A DNA stretch of 29,684 bases from a virus: IMG/VR virus record IMGVR_UViG_3300032050_007149, positions 1 to 29,684 of that record; one strand, given 5' to 3'. The position numbers and the translations under genes are program-made. Below the pieces are notes generated by a model that ran no database searches, had not been told where the DNA came from, and worked only from the letters and a program-made list of their open reading frames with translations. Positions 8,733 to 29,684 of this stretch are shown piece by piece. The first letter of the stretch is position 1; each line of letters begins with the position of its first letter.

Positions 8733-9851
8733 ATGGCATTAGTACAGAGCATAGTTTACGACAACACAGTCAATCAGTGGAAGGTAACTCTTGATAGTCC
8801 TACTATCACTGTACAATCTTTTCCTGTAACTGTTTCCTATGATGGCACCTTAGGATCTACTTATATTGTTCCAACTGACGGTGTTCTTTACTCTGCAAAT
8901 AACAATACCTTAATAGTTCCAGCAGGCATTAGAGAGTTTGCTGTTATAATTGGGGTATTCTCTACTGTTTACAATATTTTCTTAGATGATTACACTATTG
9001 AATTAACTATCGGTACTGTAACAACATCTAAATTTTTCGATGTACAAGATCCTCAAGGAACTCCTGGACCAAAAGGTGATCCTGGTGCCCTTGGTCCTAA
9101 AGGTGACAAAGGGGATATTGGTTTAACAGGACCAATAGGACCGATTGGTCCTAAAGGTGATCGCGGAGATCAAGGTCTACCTGGCGCTAAAGGTGACCAA
9201 GGTGAGAAAGGCGAAAAAGGTGAAAAAGGCGATCGTGGCGAACAAGGTCTGCAGGGAGATCAAGGTGTACCTGGAATACAAGGGATACAAGGATTTAGGG
9301 GAGACACAGGCGCCGACGGAGCTCCTGGTCCTAGAGGATTTAATGGACCTCCTGGTCCCCAAGGCCCTTCTGGCCCTAAAGGTGAAGATGGTGTATTAGT
9401 CTGCCAAGGAGAAGAAGAACTTCCTGAATTAGATTTAACTATTCCGGGTGCGCCAGGTGCTGCACCTAAAGTAACTGAAGAACTTAAAGGCGTAGCATTT
9501 GACTATAGTGCTATACTAGGTAGAGCTGTAACTGCTTTAGAAACAATGGCAGAAACACAAAAGTTTATTGCACAGAACGTAGCCAGTATTCGTCAAAGTC
9601 AACTTGTTATTCGTATGCTGGCCTGCGGTCCGGGTATTAGGAATAGAGGTCCATATGACTGGGCTGGATTTGCATCTATCTATAGACAGTATGTACAGCA
9701 AGGTGAAGTACTTGATACTAGTAGACAAGTAACTGAAGAAGAACAACAACGTGCTTGGGCTGAATACATTTCTCTATTCAATGCTGTCAAAACTTTAGCA
9801 GCGTTTGACGATCCTCCAGTTGACAACCCGTTTGTTTCAGGACCAACCTGA
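8733..9851 (+). CDS. Collagen-like virion fibre protein
   Basis: 372 residues in three parts. Residues 1-105 are a beta-rich head (probably the virion attachment domain). About 107-219 are roughly 36 Gly-X-Y triplets with many KGD/KGE units (for example GEKGEKGEKGDRGEQG), able to form a triple helix. Residues 220-372 are an alpha-helical C-terminal domain (ALETMAETQKFIAQNVASIR, then EEEQQRAWAEYISLFNAVKTL). Such proteins serve as fibres or whiskers in tailed phages. The PAAR gene begins one base after its stop, linking it to tail-spike or baseplate genes. Repeats are short and varied, so replication slippage may change repeat number between relatives. Confidence 0.85.
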   Translation: MALVQSIVYDNTVNQWKVTLDSPTITVQSFPVTVSYDGTLGSTYIVPTDGVLYSANNNTLIVPAGIREFAVIIGVFSTVYNIFLDDYTIELTIGTVTTSKFFDVQDPQGTPGPKGDPGALGPKGDKGDIGLTGPIGPIGPKGDRGDQGLPGAKGDQGEKGEKGEKGDRGEQGLQGDQGVPGIQGIQGFRGDTGADGAPGPRGFNGPPGPQGPSGPKGEDGVLVCQGEEELPELDLTIPGAPGAAPKVTEELKGVAFDYSAILGRAVTALETMAETQKFIAQNVASIRQSQLVIRMLACGPGIRNRGPYDWAGFASIYRQYVQQGEVLDTSRQVTEEEQQRAWAEYISLFNAVKTLAAFDDPPVDNPFVSGPT

Positions 9852-9852
9852 T

Positions 9853-10116
9853 ATGCCAGGAGTATCAAGAGCAAGCGCAGACATTGCAGGATCTACGATT
9901 GTTAAAGGATCGAGTAATGTCTTTACTAACAATCTACCTACTGCACGTATAGGTGATCCTGTAGCAGGGCACGGTAAAGCACCGCACTCTGCACCGGTAA
10001 TGTCTACCGGAAGTCCAAACGTTTTTGCAAACAACATACCAGTATGTAGAGCCGGAGATATTGCAACATGCGGGCATCCAGCAACCGGTTCGTCAAATGT
10101 GTTTGCTAACGGTTGA
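9853..10116 (+). CDS. PAAR-domain tail spike tip protein
   Basis: ATG at 9853, one base after the collagen-like stop, gives 87 residues. The protein shows the PAAR repeat pattern: GSSNVFTNNLPTARIGDPV, then GSPNVFANNIPVCRAGDIA, then GSSNVFANG. Candidate zinc ligands are in GHGKAPHSAP and TCGHP. PAAR proteins cap the central spike of contractile tails, as T4 gp5.4 does. An in-frame upstream start at 9805 would overlap the collagen gene without a ribosome site and is less likely. Confidence 0.9.
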   Translation: MPGVSRASADIAGSTIVKGSSNVFTNNLPTARIGDPVAGHGKAPHSAPVMSTGSPNVFANNIPVCRAGDIATCGHPATGSSNVFANG

Positions 10117-22671: not shown

Positions 22672-23151
22672 ATGATCAAAATCACAGTAGGACTCTGTCT
22701 AGTTGCTGCGGCGGCAGTGGCAAACGCAGAATTAGTACACCAATTTAAAAATCCAGCCTTTAACGGCCAAGGATGGAGTAGTCACGCATTGACTATAGAC
22801 AGCATTGAGAAGAGTCGCAAGGATTCTATTGAAGCTGATAAAAAAGCTGCGATTGCTAAGGCTGAAACAGATTTATTAAATACACCTTTGAATAGATTTA
22901 TGGGTCTATTCCAAAGTCAAGTTTATGCACAGTTGGCAACACAACTCAGCAACAACTTATTTCAAAACAAGTGTGCGGCAGCAGACGGCGGCACTATTCC
23001 AGGTTGCGTTAACCCATCTACTGGTAATTTTGTATTAGATGGTAATACAGTGACCTGGACTAAAAATGCCAACAATGTAACATTAACCGTAGTTGATGCT
23101 AAAGGCACTAGAACTACTGTTGTAGTGCCAATTGCCAGCTTTAGCTTTTAA
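22672..23151 (+). CDS. csgF: Curli assembly factor CsgF
   Basis: 159 residues. A Sec signal peptide (VGLCLVAAAAVANA) is cleaved before ELVHQFKNPAFNGQG, the conserved CsgF N-terminus (FQFRNPNFGGN in E. coli) that plugs into the CsgG pore. The helical middle (NTPLNRFMGLFQSQVYAQL) and the C-terminal strands (GNFVLDGNTVTWTKN, VTLTVVDAKGTRTTV) also match CsgF. An insert with two cysteines (NKCAAADGGTIPGCVN, about 102-117), absent from E. coli CsgF as I recall it, may form a disulfide loop. It guides curlin nucleation at the outer membrane. csgG starts 9 bases later. Confidence 0.88.
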   Translation: MIKITVGLCLVAAAAVANAELVHQFKNPAFNGQGWSSHALTIDSIEKSRKDSIEADKKAAIAKAETDLLNTPLNRFMGLFQSQVYAQLATQLSNNLFQNKCAAADGGTIPGCVNPSTGNFVLDGNTVTWTKNANNVTLTVVDAKGTRTTVVVPIASFSF

Positions 23152-23160
23152 AGAACAAAC

Positions 23161-23967
23161 ATGAACATGATTAAATTATCCTTAATAGCGTTGGCAGCAA
23201 CAGTATTAACAGGTTGCGCTAGTTTTAGACCTACGTTTGATGCAGAAGTAGTAGGCGAAGCTAAGGTAAGCGAAACAATTAGTAAAAACTTTGACAAGAT
23301 TGCTGCACCTGATGGAGCACCTATTGCTATTGCAGTATACGGCTTTACTGATAAGACAGGCCAGCGTAAACCAAGCAATACATTGAGCTTGTTTAGCACA
23401 GCAGTTACACAAGGTGCAGAAGCATACTTGATTAAAAGTTTACAAGAAGTTGGCAATCGTCAATGGTTCACAGTTGTTGAGCGTGTTGGCCTAGACAACT
23501 TGTTAAAAGAACGTCAGATGATCAAACAGACACGTGAGATCTACGAAGGCGATAAAGCGAAGATGTTACCTCCGTTAACTATGGCAGGTGTCATTCTTGA
23601 AGGCGCTATTGTTGACTACAATAGCAACACACTAACAGGCGGAACTGGAGCACGTTGGTTAGGTGTGGGACCTTTTACCCAATATACACAAGATCTAGTT
23701 GTTATTAGTTTACGACTGGTCAGCGTACAAACTGGGGAAGTACTAACTACTGTGACAGTAGAGAAGAATTTATTAAGCACTGCCGAAGGCGTCACTGCTC
23801 TTAGATTTTTCAATCAAGCAACTCGAGCATTTGAATTTGATGCGAGTCAGACTTTTAACGAACCAGGCAATTATGCACTACGTTCAGCTATTGAAACAGC
23901 AGTCATTGAATTAATCAACAAAGGACAACGTCAGAACCTTTGGAAATTTAAGGAGCAGAAAAAATGA
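23161..23967 (+). CDS. csgG: Curli secretion channel CsgG (outer-membrane lipoprotein)
   Basis: 268 residues. The lipobox LTGC gives a lipidated Cys after an 18-residue signal. CsgG hallmarks follow: YGFTDKTGQRKPSN, LFSTAVTQGAEAYL, WFTVVERVGLDNLLKERQMI, GVILEGAIVDYNSNTLTGG with GARWLGVG, and FNEPGNYALRSAIETAVIEL. It forms a nonameric pore for curlin export. The constriction loop between RKP and FSTAV is one residue longer than in E. coli, and Leu replaces Asn55 while Phe56 is kept; the Tyr51 equivalent is missing. It overlaps the curlin-like gene by ATGA. Confidence 0.93.
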   Translation: MNMIKLSLIALAATVLTGCASFRPTFDAEVVGEAKVSETISKNFDKIAAPDGAPIAIAVYGFTDKTGQRKPSNTLSLFSTAVTQGAEAYLIKSLQEVGNRQWFTVVERVGLDNLLKERQMIKQTREIYEGDKAKMLPPLTMAGVILEGAIVDYNSNTLTGGTGARWLGVGPFTQYTQDLVVISLRLVSVQTGEVLTTVTVEKNLLSTAEGVTALRFFNQATRAFEFDASQTFNEPGNYALRSAIETAVIELINKGQRQNLWKFKEQKK

Positions 23968-24758
23968 AAAAAACAATATTAGCAATTGTGTTGGCAGCGG
24001 CATTACCAGCCATGGCGCAGACAGCAGTGTCTGCTCCTACAACACCAACAATCCCAACAATGGTAACAGTTAGCCCTAATGCTACAGCAGCATTGGCCAG
24101 CTCAACTACCAACCGTGTGTTTATTGACCAAAGCGGTGCAAACCCTAACGTCAACGTAACACAAGAAGGTACCGGCAACAAGGCAGGATCGGATACTCGT
24201 CCAGTATATCTACGTGGTATTGACCAAACTGTTGTTACTCGTCAGATTGGCAACAACAACGAAATTATGTTAGAAGCAGTCAATGCTACAACTGGGACAG
24301 GTCAAGGAGTTAAAGTTACTATTCAACAAATTGGTAACAGCAACAAAGTTGATGCAGCTTGCGGATACGGCACAAGTACAAGCGGATCAGGCAGTGTAGC
24401 ATTAACAGGTTGTAAAGCAGCTGACTTGAACTGGAAGTTTGACGGCAATAGTAACGAACTACAGTTCCGTGGTACTGGTGCTGATCTAAAGAGTGCTATT
24501 GATGTAAAAGGCAACACTAACAAGTTCTATATGGATGTCATTGGTGACAAGCACACACAAACTATCAAAGTTGTAGGTGATACTAACACTATGAATATCA
24601 ACCAAAGCAACACAGGTTCAGCAGGTAGCAGCATTTGGATTGATCTAAACGGTTCAAGCAATACTATGACTATTGCTCAAACTGGGACTATTGACCATGT
24701 GTTAAACATCAAGAGTGTCAGCACAGGCGGCACATTCAATATCGTTCAGAAGAACTAA
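23964..24758 (+). CDS. Secreted curlin-repeat protein
   Basis: 264 residues with a Sec signal (ILAIVLAAALPAMAQ). The mature part carries degenerate curlin units of the form Q-x-G-x-x-N-x5-Q, for example QQIGNSNKV, DGNSNELQF, KGNTNKFYMDV, VGDTNTMNINQ, NGSSNTMTIAQ. These Ser/Asn/Gln-rich strands are the amyloid unit of CsgA/CsgB. It is longer and less regular than CsgA (about 150), with a Cys pair around the segment ACGYGTSTS...LTGC, possibly a disulfide loop. Likely substrate of the CsgG pore encoded just upstream (start on the csgG stop). Confidence 0.85.
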   Translation: MKKTILAIVLAAALPAMAQTAVSAPTTPTIPTMVTVSPNATAALASSTTNRVFIDQSGANPNVNVTQEGTGNKAGSDTRPVYLRGIDQTVVTRQIGNNNEIMLEAVNATTGTGQGVKVTIQQIGNSNKVDAACGYGTSTSGSGSVALTGCKAADLNWKFDGNSNELQFRGTGADLKSAIDVKGNTNKFYMDVIGDKHTQTIKVVGDTNTMNINQSNTGSAGSSIWIDLNGSSNTMTIAQTGTIDHVLNIKSVSTGGTFNIVQKN

Positions 24759-24788
24759 GAGGCTGCTATGAGAGCAGCCCTCTTTTTC
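24759..24788 (+). terminator. Terminator-like hairpin with the FecR start codon in its loop
   Basis: GGCTGCT (24761-24767), loop ATGAG (24768-24772), AGCAGCC (24773-24779), then CTC and TTTTT (24783-24787). G59/A58 can extend the stem past a bulged A. The shape is that of an intrinsic terminator placed across the start of the FecR gene, so it could both end transcripts after the curlin gene and limit translation of FecR. Confidence 0.6.
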
Positions 24789-25907
24789 TCAGCATTATTT
24801 CTTGCGGGCTCAGCCTGGGCCAATATTGGTTCAGTTACTGAGTCTACAGGTGTTGCTGTTATTAAAAGAGGAAAAGAAACTATTGCTATCGCCAAAGGTA
24901 CAGTAGTTCAAACCAACGACAAGATTGAAACTAAAAACGGCAAGGTAAAAGTTGTATTCAAAGATGATACGGCTGTTACAGTAACTGAAAGCAGTGCATT
25001 GGTCATTGACGACTTTGTTTATGATCCAAAGAGCGGAGCAGGTAAGTTAGGCCTTAAAGCCACTGCTGGCGCTGTGCGATATGTATCTGGCAGTATTGCC
25101 AAAGATCCTAAGAATGTAAAAATCAACACACCTACCGCAGCCATTACTGTTCGCGGTACTGACTTTGTTATGGCAGTGAGCGAAACTGGCGGCAGTATGA
25201 TTATGTTGATGCCTACATGTGAAATAGAACAAGGTATCAACTTGAAAGGTCTTACATGCGGTAGCGGAGCTATTGATGTAGAAACGCCTGCTGGCATAGT
25301 CAAAATGAATCGCCCTTATCAGGCTACTATTGTAGAAACTGCAGGTGCTGCTCCATTGCCTCCTATCACCGTAAATCTAAGTGGAGCCCCTATTGGTACT
25401 AACCTTTTAATTACTCCTCCCAAGACTGCTGGAGGTGTTAGTATTGTAGCTGCTGCTCGTGCTGCTGCTGAACGTACTGGCGACGCCAAGCGCGATGATA
25501 AAAAAGACGACAAAGAAGACAAGGATGATGCTAAAGATGGTGAAAAGCAACATGTAGCATCAAAGCAAGGCGATGATAGACAACGTCAAAATTCTCAGCA
25601 ATCGCGAGAAACAACTACTAAGGTAGAAGCAATTGATACTAAAAAGTTAGATGTTGCAGTGGGCGATGTCGGCACAGAAAATCCCAATGTTAAAAAGATT
25701 TGGAAAGATCGAAGCGAAACACAGCAAGTGGGATGGCAATATGAAAGTTTAAGTAGTAATGGTAATAACTATGCCAATGTTAGTTTACCTATGGATACAA
25801 AAGCATTGGTTATTGTTACACAGGATCGAGTTGTTGATGCTTTCAACTTTAATACTCAAAGCACTAAGTCATACGGACTGATTGTTATCAATCAGACATA
25901 CAGATGA
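24768..25907 (+). CDS. FecR-domain secreted/periplasmic protein
   Basis: 379 residues. Signal peptide ALFFSALFLAGSAWA; FecR domain about 45-155, with KRGKETIAIAKGTVVQTNDKI, FKDDTAVTVTESSALVIDDF, and NTPTAAITVRGTDFVMAV (the VRGTDF signature). There is no cytoplasmic anti-sigma part, unlike classical FecR. A charged repeat linker (KRDDKKDDKEDKDDAKDGEK, about 242-261) leads to a C-terminal beta domain. Stand-alone FecR proteins often sit beside CHASE2 cyclases in bacteria, as here, so it may be a periplasmic partner or ligand of the downstream CHASE2 sensor. The start codon lies in a terminator-like hairpin. Confidence 0.85.
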   Translation: MRAALFFSALFLAGSAWANIGSVTESTGVAVIKRGKETIAIAKGTVVQTNDKIETKNGKVKVVFKDDTAVTVTESSALVIDDFVYDPKSGAGKLGLKATAGAVRYVSGSIAKDPKNVKINTPTAAITVRGTDFVMAVSETGGSMIMLMPTCEIEQGINLKGLTCGSGAIDVETPAGIVKMNRPYQATIVETAGAAPLPPITVNLSGAPIGTNLLITPPKTAGGVSIVAAARAAAERTGDAKRDDKKDDKEDKDDAKDGEKQHVASKQGDDRQRQNSQQSRETTTKVEAIDTKKLDVAVGDVGTENPNVKKIWKDRSETQQVGWQYESLSSNGNNYANVSLPMDTKALVIVTQDRVVDAFNFNTQSTKSYGLIVINQTYR

Positions 25908-27748
25908 AAAAGATATTTCTTGCACTGTTATTGTTGTGCTCTAATGCGTTTGGAGCCTTGACAGATATAAAATTCGGGAAATACCAAATCGCTGATAGTC
26001 AATGGAATGTCAGTGCCTGTTTGAATACAACAACCTGTCAAATCTACAGTAAGAATCCAGGAACAATGTACAAAATACCCTGGACCGCTGGAACTTGGAA
26101 TTGGCAAGCAGGTCAATATGTTCAATTTGCAACAACTGGTAATGGCAGTTATCCTTACGAAGGTAAAGTTTACAATAGCAATGGCACACAAGCAGGAACT
26201 ATCGGCACAGGTAAAATTGTTAATATGGGCCCAGATTATTTCTTCTTTGTGGGCAACGACAACAATACAGGACAACTATTCAGCGGCAGTTCGGGTATGA
26301 GCAATACCAGCGGAGTGTCGTGGACTGGTACACTTAATCCAACTATACAACAGGCCGACACTTATGCTAATGCATCTTATTCCACAGTCCCGTTAAGTTC
26401 AGGACAGACTGCTACATCTACTCCTAGTAGTTCACCTCCTCCGCCCACTTATGGAGTAAACTTTACACGAGTCACTAGTTATGAATGGCGTAGTTACACA
26501 GCAGGTACTCAACCTATTAGCAGTGAACAAGCACACGAAGCATTTGACGGCAACAACGGCAGCAAATGGTTTGGACTCAGAAGTCAGGGTGCTTGGGCTG
26601 TTGTGCAATTTGTAACAGATGGGACATATTCTCCAACCAGGGCTGTACAGAAAATACAGTTTGTCACAGCCAATGACGCATCTAACCGCGATCCATCGGG
26701 ATTTAGAGTATGGGGCAGTGTCAACGGATATGACTGGGTGCTGATATCAGAGCAAGCAATATCATTGCCTACTGGCAGATACGCAGAGAGCACTGTTTAT
26801 AGTTTAAACAATGTCACTGCTTTTAGTTATTACAAAATAGAATTCACCGGATCCAGAGACGGCGGCGATGCGTTCCAAGTGGCTGAGATTAGATTGCTTT
26901 ACGATGTAGATGATCCACAAGGCACACAAGCGGGGGGTGGTGTGTATGTTGCTCCTGCTTGGCCTTCAACCAGTGACATATCAATAGCACAAACTGCACA
27001 GCGTAACTCAGCAAAGAGTCGTGTATCAAACATAGTATTAGGCAATAGCTTGCATCTTGAACAAAAGATAGGTAGCAGCAATAACTCAGTGACTATTGAA
27101 CAAACTGGTAACTATAACAAGATTGCAGGCATTGGTGGCGGAACTTATGCTGTCGTAGATGGCGATAATAATATAGTTAACATCAAACAAGGTGATACTT
27201 TAGGTAAGAACTTGATTGAGTTCAACATAGTAGGCAACACTAACAATGTAACCATATGGCAAGCACGTAATCCAACAACAGGTTTACAAGACGGTGGTGA
27301 AAGTGGCGGACACTACATTGGATTAAATGTAAATGGCAGCACCAATACATTAAGCTTAAAACAGAGCAATACTGGAGGTGCAACATCAGGACACTTTGCC
27401 TATGTTGATGTAACGGGCAACAACAATCAAGGCACATTAACACAGTCAAATAACAGTGAAAAAACGTTCTTTGGCATAGTTAACGGCAACTACAATGTGT
27501 TTAATGTTACACAGCAGGGCGGTATAAACTACTTTGATTTAAGTTTAACTGGTTACGGGCATAACGTTACTGCTAACCAAAAGGACTCAGGTAGCCATAA
27601 AGCTACTATTAACCTAACTAATGCAGGCGGCGCCAGCACAGTTAACCTTGTACAACAAGGTGCTACAGCACAAAACATCAATATTACACAGCAATGCGCT
27701 ACGCTATCAGGATGCTCAGTTAGCGTCACACAGGGTGGAGGCCCATAA
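25904..27748 (+). CDS. Discoidin-like/curlin-repeat fusion, secreted
   Basis: 614 residues. Signal peptide MKKIFLALLLLCSNAFG; domain of about 145 residues of unknown type; Pro/Ser linker (TPSSSPPPPT); an F5/8 type C (discoidin-like) domain about 186-332 (SSEQAHEAFDGNNGSKWFG, FRVWGSVNGYDWVLISEQ, FQVAEIRLLYD); then about 260 residues of curlin-like repeats (SVTIEQTGNYNKIAG, NVTIWQARN, TLSLKQSNTG, VFNVTQQGG, VNLVQQGA). The discoidin-type domain would bind sugars or lipids on a cell or particle, while the repeats add to an amyloid fibre. Its ATG overlaps the FecR stop by four bases. This arrangement suggests an adhesive curli-like surface protein exported by CsgG. Confidence 0.82.
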   Translation: MKKIFLALLLLCSNAFGALTDIKFGKYQIADSQWNVSACLNTTTCQIYSKNPGTMYKIPWTAGTWNWQAGQYVQFATTGNGSYPYEGKVYNSNGTQAGTIGTGKIVNMGPDYFFFVGNDNNTGQLFSGSSGMSNTSGVSWTGTLNPTIQQADTYANASYSTVPLSSGQTATSTPSSSPPPPTYGVNFTRVTSYEWRSYTAGTQPISSEQAHEAFDGNNGSKWFGLRSQGAWAVVQFVTDGTYSPTRAVQKIQFVTANDASNRDPSGFRVWGSVNGYDWVLISEQAISLPTGRYAESTVYSLNNVTAFSYYKIEFTGSRDGGDAFQVAEIRLLYDVDDPQGTQAGGGVYVAPAWPSTSDISIAQTAQRNSAKSRVSNIVLGNSLHLEQKIGSSNNSVTIEQTGNYNKIAGIGGGTYAVVDGDNNIVNIKQGDTLGKNLIEFNIVGNTNNVTIWQARNPTTGLQDGGESGGHYIGLNVNGSTNTLSLKQSNTGGATSGHFAYVDVTGNNNQGTLTQSNNSEKTFFGIVNGNYNVFNVTQQGGINYFDLSLTGYGHNVTANQKDSGSHKATINLTNAGGASTVNLVQQGATAQNINITQQCATLSGCSVSVTQGGGP

Positions 27749-27760
27749 GGGCAATAAGGT

Positions 27761-27789
27761 TAAATAATAGTATGAAAAAAATACTATTA
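27761..27789 (+). promoter_or_regulatory. Late promoter with leaderless start and start-codon inverted repeat
   Basis: TAAATA at 27761-27766 predicts +1 at 27772, exactly the ATG of the cyclase gene; no ribosome site is present. TAATAGTAT (27765-27773) and ATACTATTA (27781-27789) form a perfect 9-bp repeat with loop GAAAAAA. Only read-through RNA from the curli-like genes contains the whole left arm. Confidence 0.68.
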
Positions 27790-29684
27790 AGTCCTTGGAC
27801 AGCACTAATAACATTAGCCATAATTGTAGGCATCAGATTTGCAGATCCTGCATTTGTAGAAAGCGTAAGACTACGCTACTTTGATCAACTGGTCACAAGT
27901 CAACCTGCAAAAGATATTCCTGTACACACAGTTAATATCGATGAAGCAGCATTGGACAAGTATGGACAGTTTCCATTCAGTCGCGATATCTATGCTGAAA
28001 TCATTCGAGACTTGTACAAGCGTGAAGCAGGATTAGTTGTATTCAACATATTACTTGCTGAAAAAGATCGTTTTGGAAAAGATCCTGTACTTGCAGCTAC
28101 ATTAGAAAAACATGCTGTGATATTGCCTAACTTGGGTTCAATGCAAAACAAGAACACAGCACATGGATCGCCAGCAGCAGTTATTGGACAAGACCCTGCA
28201 GGATTAGTTGTAGAGTATCCAGGCATATTAAGCAACATTGATATGTTAGGTGAACGAGCAGCAGGTGTTGGTATGGTCAACACATTTCCTGAAGTAGACG
28301 GTGTAGTTCGTCGTACTCCATTAGTAATTTACAGTCAAGAACATTTGTATCCCAGTTTAGCACTGGAAACACTTCGTGTAGCAGCTGGTGATAAAAACTT
28401 CCAAATTAAGATCGGTGAGATGGGTGTAGAAGCACTTAGAGTTCCTAAGTTTGGTAAGATTGCAACGGATGATATCAGTCGTGTATGGATTGATTGGTCA
28501 GCAACTCCTAAACAACACAGCCTTGCTAAAATGCCCGCAAGCTTCAACGGTGAAATTGTTATTGTAGGATTAAGTGCAGCAGGATTAGTACAGCCAGTGG
28601 CAACCAGCAAGGGAGAAGTATGGCCGCAAGACCTACAGGCAGCAGCATTGGGCACAATGATGACGGGCACAACTATCCAACGTCCTGGCTACGCAGATAC
28701 TGCCGAAGTAATAGCCATTGTGATAGCAGGCTTACTATTATTATTTTTAACAAGGTGGACATATGTTGGACTTGCCGCAGTGGTTGTATTGGTCGGTGGG
28801 GGTATTGCTGGCAGTATTCTTGCTTACAGTAATCTTCTATTCTTATTCGATGCTACTGCCTTTGCAGTTGGCACAACTTTGGTCGCTTTGCATGCCTATG
28901 GCATCAAGTTTGTAAGTGAGTTCTTACAGAAGCAACAGATCAAGAAACAATTTGGCGGTTATGTTAATCCTATTATCGTAGAACGCTTACAGAAAGATCC
29001 AAGTTTTATCAAACTCGGTGGCGAAAAGAAAGACCTAACAGTTATCATGAGCGACATGCGTAACTTTACTGGACTCGGTGAAACTTACGGTGATGACGTT
29101 GTGGCATTTACACATACTATGAATCGTTACATGACTGCCATTGCAGAACCTATACTACGTAACAATGGATGTTTGATCAAATTCATCGGCGATGCAAGTC
29201 TACACGTACACGGTGCTCCTATTCAAGAAGAACAAGATCCAGATCATGTACTTGCAGGTGTACGCACAGGTCTTGAAATGTTACACGCTGTTGAACTGTT
29301 TAACATTGAGCTTACCAAAGAAGGCAAGCCATTAGTAGGTTGCGGATTGGGTATCAACACAGGTCCTACACTGATTGGTAACATTGGTAGTAAGGACCGT
29401 TTTGGCTATGACGTCTTAGGTGACTCAGTTAGTTTAACAGCACGTCTAGAAGGACAAACTAAGAACTACGGTGTGCTAATTATCATCAGTGAGTTTACAC
29501 AAGCTCGTGTAGGTGACAACTACTTTACAATTCCGTTAGACTGCATTGCTGTTAAAGGTAAGACCATCGGTGTTAACATATTCACAGTGTTTTACAATCC
29601 AGATGTTACAGTGGCAGCAGATTGGATTAGTGCCCGTGAGCATCATGAACTGATGTTGCAGTATTATCGTGAACAGCAATGGGA
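27772..29684 (+). CDS. CHASE2 sensor-class III adenylate/guanylate cyclase (partial)
   Basis: Open to the window end, 637 codons seen. An N-terminal membrane helix (about 10-22) leads to a periplasmic CHASE2 domain (about 25-305; RLRYFDQLV, VNIDEAALDKYGQFPFSRD, GVGMVNTFPEVDGVVRR), three membrane helices (about 311-376) and a cytoplasmic cyclase domain (about 415-600). Metal-binding Asp428 (MSDMRNFT) and Asp474 (FIGDAS), Lys470 (base recognition) and Arg558 are present, but the transition-state Asn is Ser554 (GDSVSLTARLEG). It would sense an outer signal and make cAMP, or be impaired in catalysis. It follows the curli-like genes by 23 bases and has its own late promoter. Confidence 0.88.
   Translation, partial: MKKILLSPWTALITLAIIVGIRFADPAFVESVRLRYFDQLVTSQPAKDIPVHTVNIDEAALDKYGQFPFSRDIYAEIIRDLYKREAGLVVFNILLAEKDRFGKDPVLAATLEKHAVILPNLGSMQNKNTAHGSPAAVIGQDPAGLVVEYPGILSNIDMLGERAAGVGMVNTFPEVDGVVRRTPLVIYSQEHLYPSLALETLRVAAGDKNFQIKIGEMGVEALRVPKFGKIATDDISRVWIDWSATPKQHSLAKMPASFNGEIVIVGLSAAGLVQPVATSKGEVWPQDLQAAALGTMMTGTTIQRPGYADTAEVIAIVIAGLLLLFLTRWTYVGLAAVVVLVGGGIAGSILAYSNLLFLFDATAFAVGTTLVALHAYGIKFVSEFLQKQQIKKQFGGYVNPIIVERLQKDPSFIKLGGEKKDLTVIMSDMRNFTGLGETYGDDVVAFTHTMNRYMTAIAEPILRNNGCLIKFIGDASLHVHGAPIQEEQDPDHVLAGVRTGLEMLHAVELFNIELTKEGKPLVGCGLGINTGPTLIGNIGSKDRFGYDVLGDSVSLTARLEGQTKNYGVLIIISEFTQARVGDNYFTIPLDCIAVKGKTIGVNIFTVFYNPDVTVAADWISAREHHELMLQYYREQQW

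Follow-up and report, generated by a model that had tools for sequence, protein, structure and literature searches.

The window analyzed here is the whole of a 29,684-nt (29.7-kb) viral contig, IMG/VR record IMGVR_UViG_3300032050_007149, from a T4-like virus. Its phage genes, several of which were named by eye, include nrdA/nrdB (the nrdA having merely generic similarity to that of other phages), Hsp20, ClpS, a PAAR-like protein (9805-10116), and, adjoining the last, a collagen-repeat protein (8733-9851; PF01391, E 1.3e-18) that is probably a fibre. No tRNA and no Rfam family were found in the window, and promoter and terminator scans of it gave matches at chance level.

Positions 22672-29682 constitute a single, tightly packed operon on the (+) strand that codes, in order, for homologues of CsgF and CsgG, a headless curlin-repeat protein, a FecR-domain protein, a fusion protein, and a CHASE2-cyclase. 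The csgF homologue (22672-23151; PF10614, E 1.2e-11, 45.3 bits against a cut-off of 25.8), associated with pore capping and fibre anchoring, and the csgG homologue (23161-23967; PF03783, E 5.1e-50), for the lipoprotein that forms the outer-membrane secretion pore, both lie above the Pfam cut-offs and place the locus among type VIII secretion (curli) operons; the CsgG is 44% identical to that of the cultured pelagiphage HTVC008M. The stop of csgG overlaps (23964/23967) the start of the gene for the headless curlin (23964-24758), the presumed fibre core (CsgA/B-like), which is matched by a CsgB model (E 1.5e-7), lies narrowly below the cut-off of PF07012 (E 8.6e-4), and shares 27% identity with the curlin of the fusion (E 3e-6). 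The gene for the exported FecR-domain protein (24768-25907; PF04773, E 3.8e-10) overlaps by 4 bases (25904/25907) the start of the fusion gene, gene 5 of the operon (25904-27748; ATG start, 614 aa). The last gene (27772-29682, where it leaves the window), for a CHASE2 sensor with an adenylate/guanylate cyclase domain (PF05226, E 9.8e-37; PF00211, E 3.3e-13), is phage-encoded and shares its operon with the fibre genes.

A hairpin between the headless curlin and FecR genes (24761-24779; GGCTGCT-ATGAG-AGCAGCC) carries the start codon of FecR within the loop and is followed by a T-rich stretch. Another stem (ggcaac-ATGAGA-GTTGCC) stands at this site in the type 1 relatives L008 and L028, a similar one is found in L010, L013, and L019, and some relatives (L003 and L011) have no stem there. 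The hairpin may set the ratio of the fibre core to the products of the downstream genes.

Domain architecture of the fusion protein

The fusion begins with a signal peptide (residues 1-17, 25904-25954; read by eye as MKKIFLALLLLCSNAFG), followed by a conserved N domain (residues 18-170, 25955-26413), delimited by alignments of relatives and by AlphaFold2, and by a Ser/Thr/Pro linker (residues 171-185, 26414-26458; ...STPSSSPPPPTYG) that contains SSSPPPPTYG and coincides with a swap junction in relatives. Next come a discoidin domain (residues 186-337, 26459-26914), a short second linker, and a curlin-type β-solenoid of about 264 residues (residues 350-614, 26951-27745).

Taken alone, the discoidin domain of the window protein falls below the Pfam cut-off (PF00754, 17.0 bits against 28.2; E 0.0065). 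The F5/8 type C match is found in 15 of 24 aligned family members (best E 7.3e-12), the module of the relative L002 passes at 38.2 bits, and a 13-member profile of the module retrieves the CBM32-type domain of a GH92 mannosidase (PDB 7nsn; E 4.9e-31). The AlphaFold2 model of residues 186-338 matches the same structure (Z 16.5, rmsd 2.6, 141 residues). By profile homology to solved members and by its predicted jelly-roll fold, the module is an F5/8 type C (CBM32-like) domain.

The curlin repeat is likewise below the cut-off in the window protein alone (PF07012, 14.7 bits against 20.7); among relatives it reaches E 4.6e-9, and L030 (23.3 bits) and L079 (24.7 bits) pass. At full length, the AlphaFold2 model has moderate confidence (mean pLDDT 65) and contains a regular strand ladder across residues 382-610, with pLDDT of about 80-89 over most of 470-580. 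Its C-terminal solenoid matches a β-helix protein (Z 19.2, rmsd 2.7 over 213), a likeness of shape that alone is no proof of curlin. Together with the matches in relatives, the predicted strand-pair solenoid in the csgF/csgG operon setting identifies the C terminus of the fusion as a curlin-repeat protein. The initial annotation had read this ORF as a secreted protein in which a discoidin-type domain is joined by a Pro linker to about 260 residues of curlin-type repeats, to be checked by domain search and structure prediction; each of these elements was recovered, the discoidin fold also in the AlphaFold2 model.

The N domain is predicted with high confidence (pLDDT 95.3, pTM 0.91) and is conserved at 63% mean column identity across 39 diverse members. 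Fold searches against the PDB and the viral models of BFVD returned nothing significant (best Foldseek E 0.064-0.076; best Z 3.3, to a lectin), and no sequence relative was found in the PDB. We do not name it a lectin-type fold, for which a Z of 3.3 is too weak; on the basis of the model, it is possibly a new fold. Searches of 84,980 bacterial and archaeal genomes with exact peptide patterns did not find the domain, an absence that can be trusted no further than the patterns themselves.

Heads and anchors in viral relatives

Scans of viral loci with the whole protein, the N domain, and the discoidin profile yielded 36, 72, and 80 loci, respectively, which collapsed to 102 distinct proteins. 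Per-module identities across these relatives revealed that the N, middle, and curlin modules assort independently, with sharp junctions in identity profiles taken over 30-residue windows. Thus, the window protein shares its N domain (93%) and discoidin domain (88%) with L005 but not its curlin (35%), and it shares its N domain (74%) and curlin (81%) with L018, the middle domain of which is unrelated; L003 and L008 share the discoidin (86%) and curlin (88%) modules and have remote N domains (36%). The middle position is occupied by discoidin domains of two clades, by PA14-like domains (L072 and L104; weak matches), by a FETGN type of no assigned family (L018, L030, and L035), for which no relative was found in the PDB, or by no domain at all (L032 and L029). 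Two of these head types, discoidin and PA14, belong to adhesin/lectin-type families. Judged by sequence comparison, gene 5 codes for a modular display protein, with the curlin part as a pore-matched anchor and the head as exchangeable cargo.

Long ORFs of RCC1-like or glycine-rich, fibre-like character lie between the fusion and the cyclase in L032 (11880-17840), L029 (12161-14467), and L034 (12168-13526). A further protein, encoded on another virus contig (L132, 8747-10432), has two discoidin domains, no recognizable signal peptide, and no curli genes nearby, and is perhaps structural. We also considered whether the head copies the phage's own tail fibre or receptor binder; no discoidin copy was found in other genes of the same phages, such as those for tail fibres, and the idea is therefore unsupported.

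The operons fall into two types by their CsgG, which is either 75-88% or about 50% identical to that of the window. Rank correlation of pairwise identities with those of CsgG over 52 non-redundant operons, also run in a permutation version, gave a rho of 0.69 (bootstrap 0.60-0.77) for the curlin module and 0.65 for FecR, against 0.12 and 0.15 for the N and discoidin domains, respectively, the sequence pairs not being independent and the bootstrap over loci being only a rough guard. Between the two types, the maximum identity is 93% for the N domain and 90% for the discoidin domain, against at most 50% for the curlin and 45% for FecR. That heads cross between operon types and the curlin does not is as expected if the curlin, unlike a cargo head, has to fit either the pore or the partner fibre. 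In every one of the 84 curlin-anchored relatives for which there is upstream sequence, csgG lies alongside.

Four relatives found by their heads (L074, L084, L094, and L190) carry the same heads, have no curlin, and end in an autotransporter-type barrel. The C-terminal domain of L094 is the Pfam Autotransporter β-domain (PF03797; E 1.6e-10, 41.6 bits against 26); the barrels of L084, L190, and L074 are assigned solely through their homology with L094 and among themselves (L084-L094, 48% over 430; L074-L190, E 1.7e-51; L190-L084, E 4e-11; L190-L094, E 1e-12). Amphipathic alternation, run as a barrel test, gave no discrimination, and a further scan for the barrel returned the known locus only. 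None of the four has csgG, either at the locus or in the whole record, three of the records being fragments of 25-37 kb and one measuring 367 kb. The association of csgG with anchor type (84/84 versus 0/4) has a Fisher p of 4e-7, which is overstated because the loci in both groups are related rather than independent. Upstream, L094 retains homologues of the window's SleB-like protein, g14059, g15032, exonuclease, Hsp20, and ClpS, so that the autotransporter there occupies the place of the curli operon. The presence of the N domain on both kinds of anchor makes it unlikely to be a CsgG-targeting signal.

Gene 5 of HTVC008M (AGE60352.1, annotated as a hypothetical protein) is a PA14-curlin fusion in which both domains exceed the Pfam cut-offs. 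Its relatives L204 (91 versus 23% identity), L208 (87 versus 23%), and L230 (89 versus 29%) retain the curlin with a different head, and L199 (curlin 58, head 95%) and L198 (60 and 93%) retain the head with a different curlin. A third type of marine head, about 210 residues long (DTAHINYV..LKSELEDLGYTVT..) and seen in L204 (3600-4922), L208, L219, and L230, has no Pfam match; the curlin joined to it shares 79-91% identity with the HTVC008M curlin. Gene 5 of the pelagiphage Melnitz is headless; the head is therefore not essential in every phage.

Possible role on the infected cell

The intact operon, the domain architecture, the module exchange, the co-variation of curlin and pore, and the replacement of the anchor can be read directly from the sequences. 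The swapping of heads on a fibre part that stays matched to the export pore suggests that the virus probably decorates the infected cell with an exchangeable adhesin. We consider it reasonably probable that the fusion is a phage-encoded, curli-anchored surface-display adhesin. According to this proposal, the signal peptide would direct the fusion to the host Sec system during infection, and the operon context suggests that it would leave through the phage's own CsgG/CsgF pore. The curlin domain might then co-assemble with, or cap, the fibre of the headless partner curlin, leaving the N and discoidin domains exposed on the infected cell, where they could bind glycans or other surface ligands. 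The benefit would lie in attachment: either neighboring hosts would be held, or the infected cell would itself be fixed to a surface, such that progeny reach hosts in dilute water. The initial annotation had suggested a fibre decorated with an adhesin; the csgF/csgG operon, the headless curlin, the swapping, and the alternative membrane anchor lend support to that suggestion and reinforce it, although it had missed the N domain, the operon, and the exchangeability of the head.

In favor of display are the operon of csgF, csgG, and headless curlin, the assortment of modules, the tracking of CsgG by the curlin, the swap of anchor, the adhesin-type heads, and the precedent of engineered CsgA fusions (PMC9477280). 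CsgG is a narrow pore, and the heads must therefore pass it unfolded or nearly so, which counts against display, as do the sub-threshold Pfam scores of the window domains taken alone, the headless gene 5 of Melnitz, and the lack of clumping in Melnitz-infected cells (PMC9004378).

The same display anatomy would also serve a block to superinfection, as proposed for pelagiphage curli (PMC9599517), with the head covering or occupying the receptor or glycans of the infected cell itself, thereby excluding competing phages. The diversity of heads would suit such an arms race at the cell surface; however, the confinement of discoidin to gene 5 in these phages gives no sign of a head that copies the receptor binder, and we regard this reading as rather unlikely. 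Attachment is favored here with superinfection block as a close second, the evidence separating the two poorly. It is quite improbable that the operon instead serves the pore itself, for lysis timing or uptake, with the curlins as passengers or plugs. A pore service of this kind was proposed for Melnitz (PMC9004378), and these operons, as described, lack CsgE (PMC9599517); yet it leaves unexplained the selected, swapped head, the tight tie of curlin to pore, and the retention of that head, on an autotransporter, in relatives without the pore. The remaining reading, in which the fusion is a tail fibre or spike of the virion with a solenoid shaft and a discoidin head, draws on the discoidin domains of phage tail proteins (phrog_17517, annotated "tail"; E 8.9e-6) and on the frequency of β-solenoids in tail spikes (PMC10192328), but the signal peptide, the secretion-pore operon, and the autotransporter variant are all unsuited to assembly in the cytoplasm, making this the most doubtful of the proposals.

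Returning to display on the infected cell, the swappability of the adhesin head on one curlin, the tie of the curlin but not of the head to the pore, and the occurrence of that head on another anchor in the absence of the pore point to surface display as the purpose. More broadly, and with slightly less than even confidence, we suggest that T4-like phages of lakes and oceans possess a virion-independent display platform, the exchangeable adhesin head of which is swapped like tail fibres and mounted on the infected cell by either a phage-made amyloid or an autotransporter. If true, this would constitute a second, cell-borne recognition layer of infection. The purpose of phage curli operons has so far been a puzzle, with suggestions spanning lysis pores and "sibling capture," and the question is now testable in a cultured system, HTVC008M and its SAR11 host.

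Relation to known systems

The pelagiphage curli (type VIII secretion) module has been published (PMC7029224, Zaragoza-Solas 2020; PMC9004378, Buchholz 2022; PMC9599517, Wittmers 2022), with sibling capture, lysis pore, and superinfection defence, respectively, as proposed roles. Like the window, it has csgF, csgG, curlin, FecR, second curlin, and cyclase in this order, the last three being included in its description (PMC9599517), and its gene 5 is already named as the second curli fibre gene. In the available text of these papers, the second curlin is only a curli repeat fibre; nothing is said there of a fused head, of its exchange or uncoupling from the pore, or of replacement by an autotransporter, and PA14, fusion, and adhesin do not occur in the text of the main paper. 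No discoidin-curlin or PA14-curlin fusion of a phage came up in the accessible text of the open-licence literature either. The initial annotation, which knew of no such architecture in phages, had missed that phage curli operons as such are published. What is new is the modularity of the gene 5 head, the tracking of CsgG by the curlin, the csgG-less barrel anchor, and the PA14-curlin fusion of HTVC008M with its head swapping.

Bacterial CsgA/CsgB share with the window the curlin repeats and the CsgG/CsgF partners; unlike the fusion, the bacterial curlins of five plasmid-borne operons, a small sample, have no head domain, and no plasmid was found to carry the curlin of the window or HTVC008M. 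The only such mention in Dueholm 2012 (PMC3521004) is of curli-like repeats in large Shewanella adhesins. L094 bears the same head on an autotransporter β-domain (PF03797), where the window protein has curlin instead. The closest solved relative of the discoidin module, the CBM32-type domain of 7nsn, belongs to an enzyme. In engineered CsgA fusions (PMC9477280), a functional domain is likewise carried on a curlin, and binding domains pass CsgG and are secreted and displayed on the fibre; these are man-made, with a nanobody on CsgA, whereas the fusion of the window is natural, has its head N terminal to the curlin, and lies in a phage operon. It would thus represent a natural, combinatorial amyloid display that parallels the engineered one and supplies head-anchor junctions already made.
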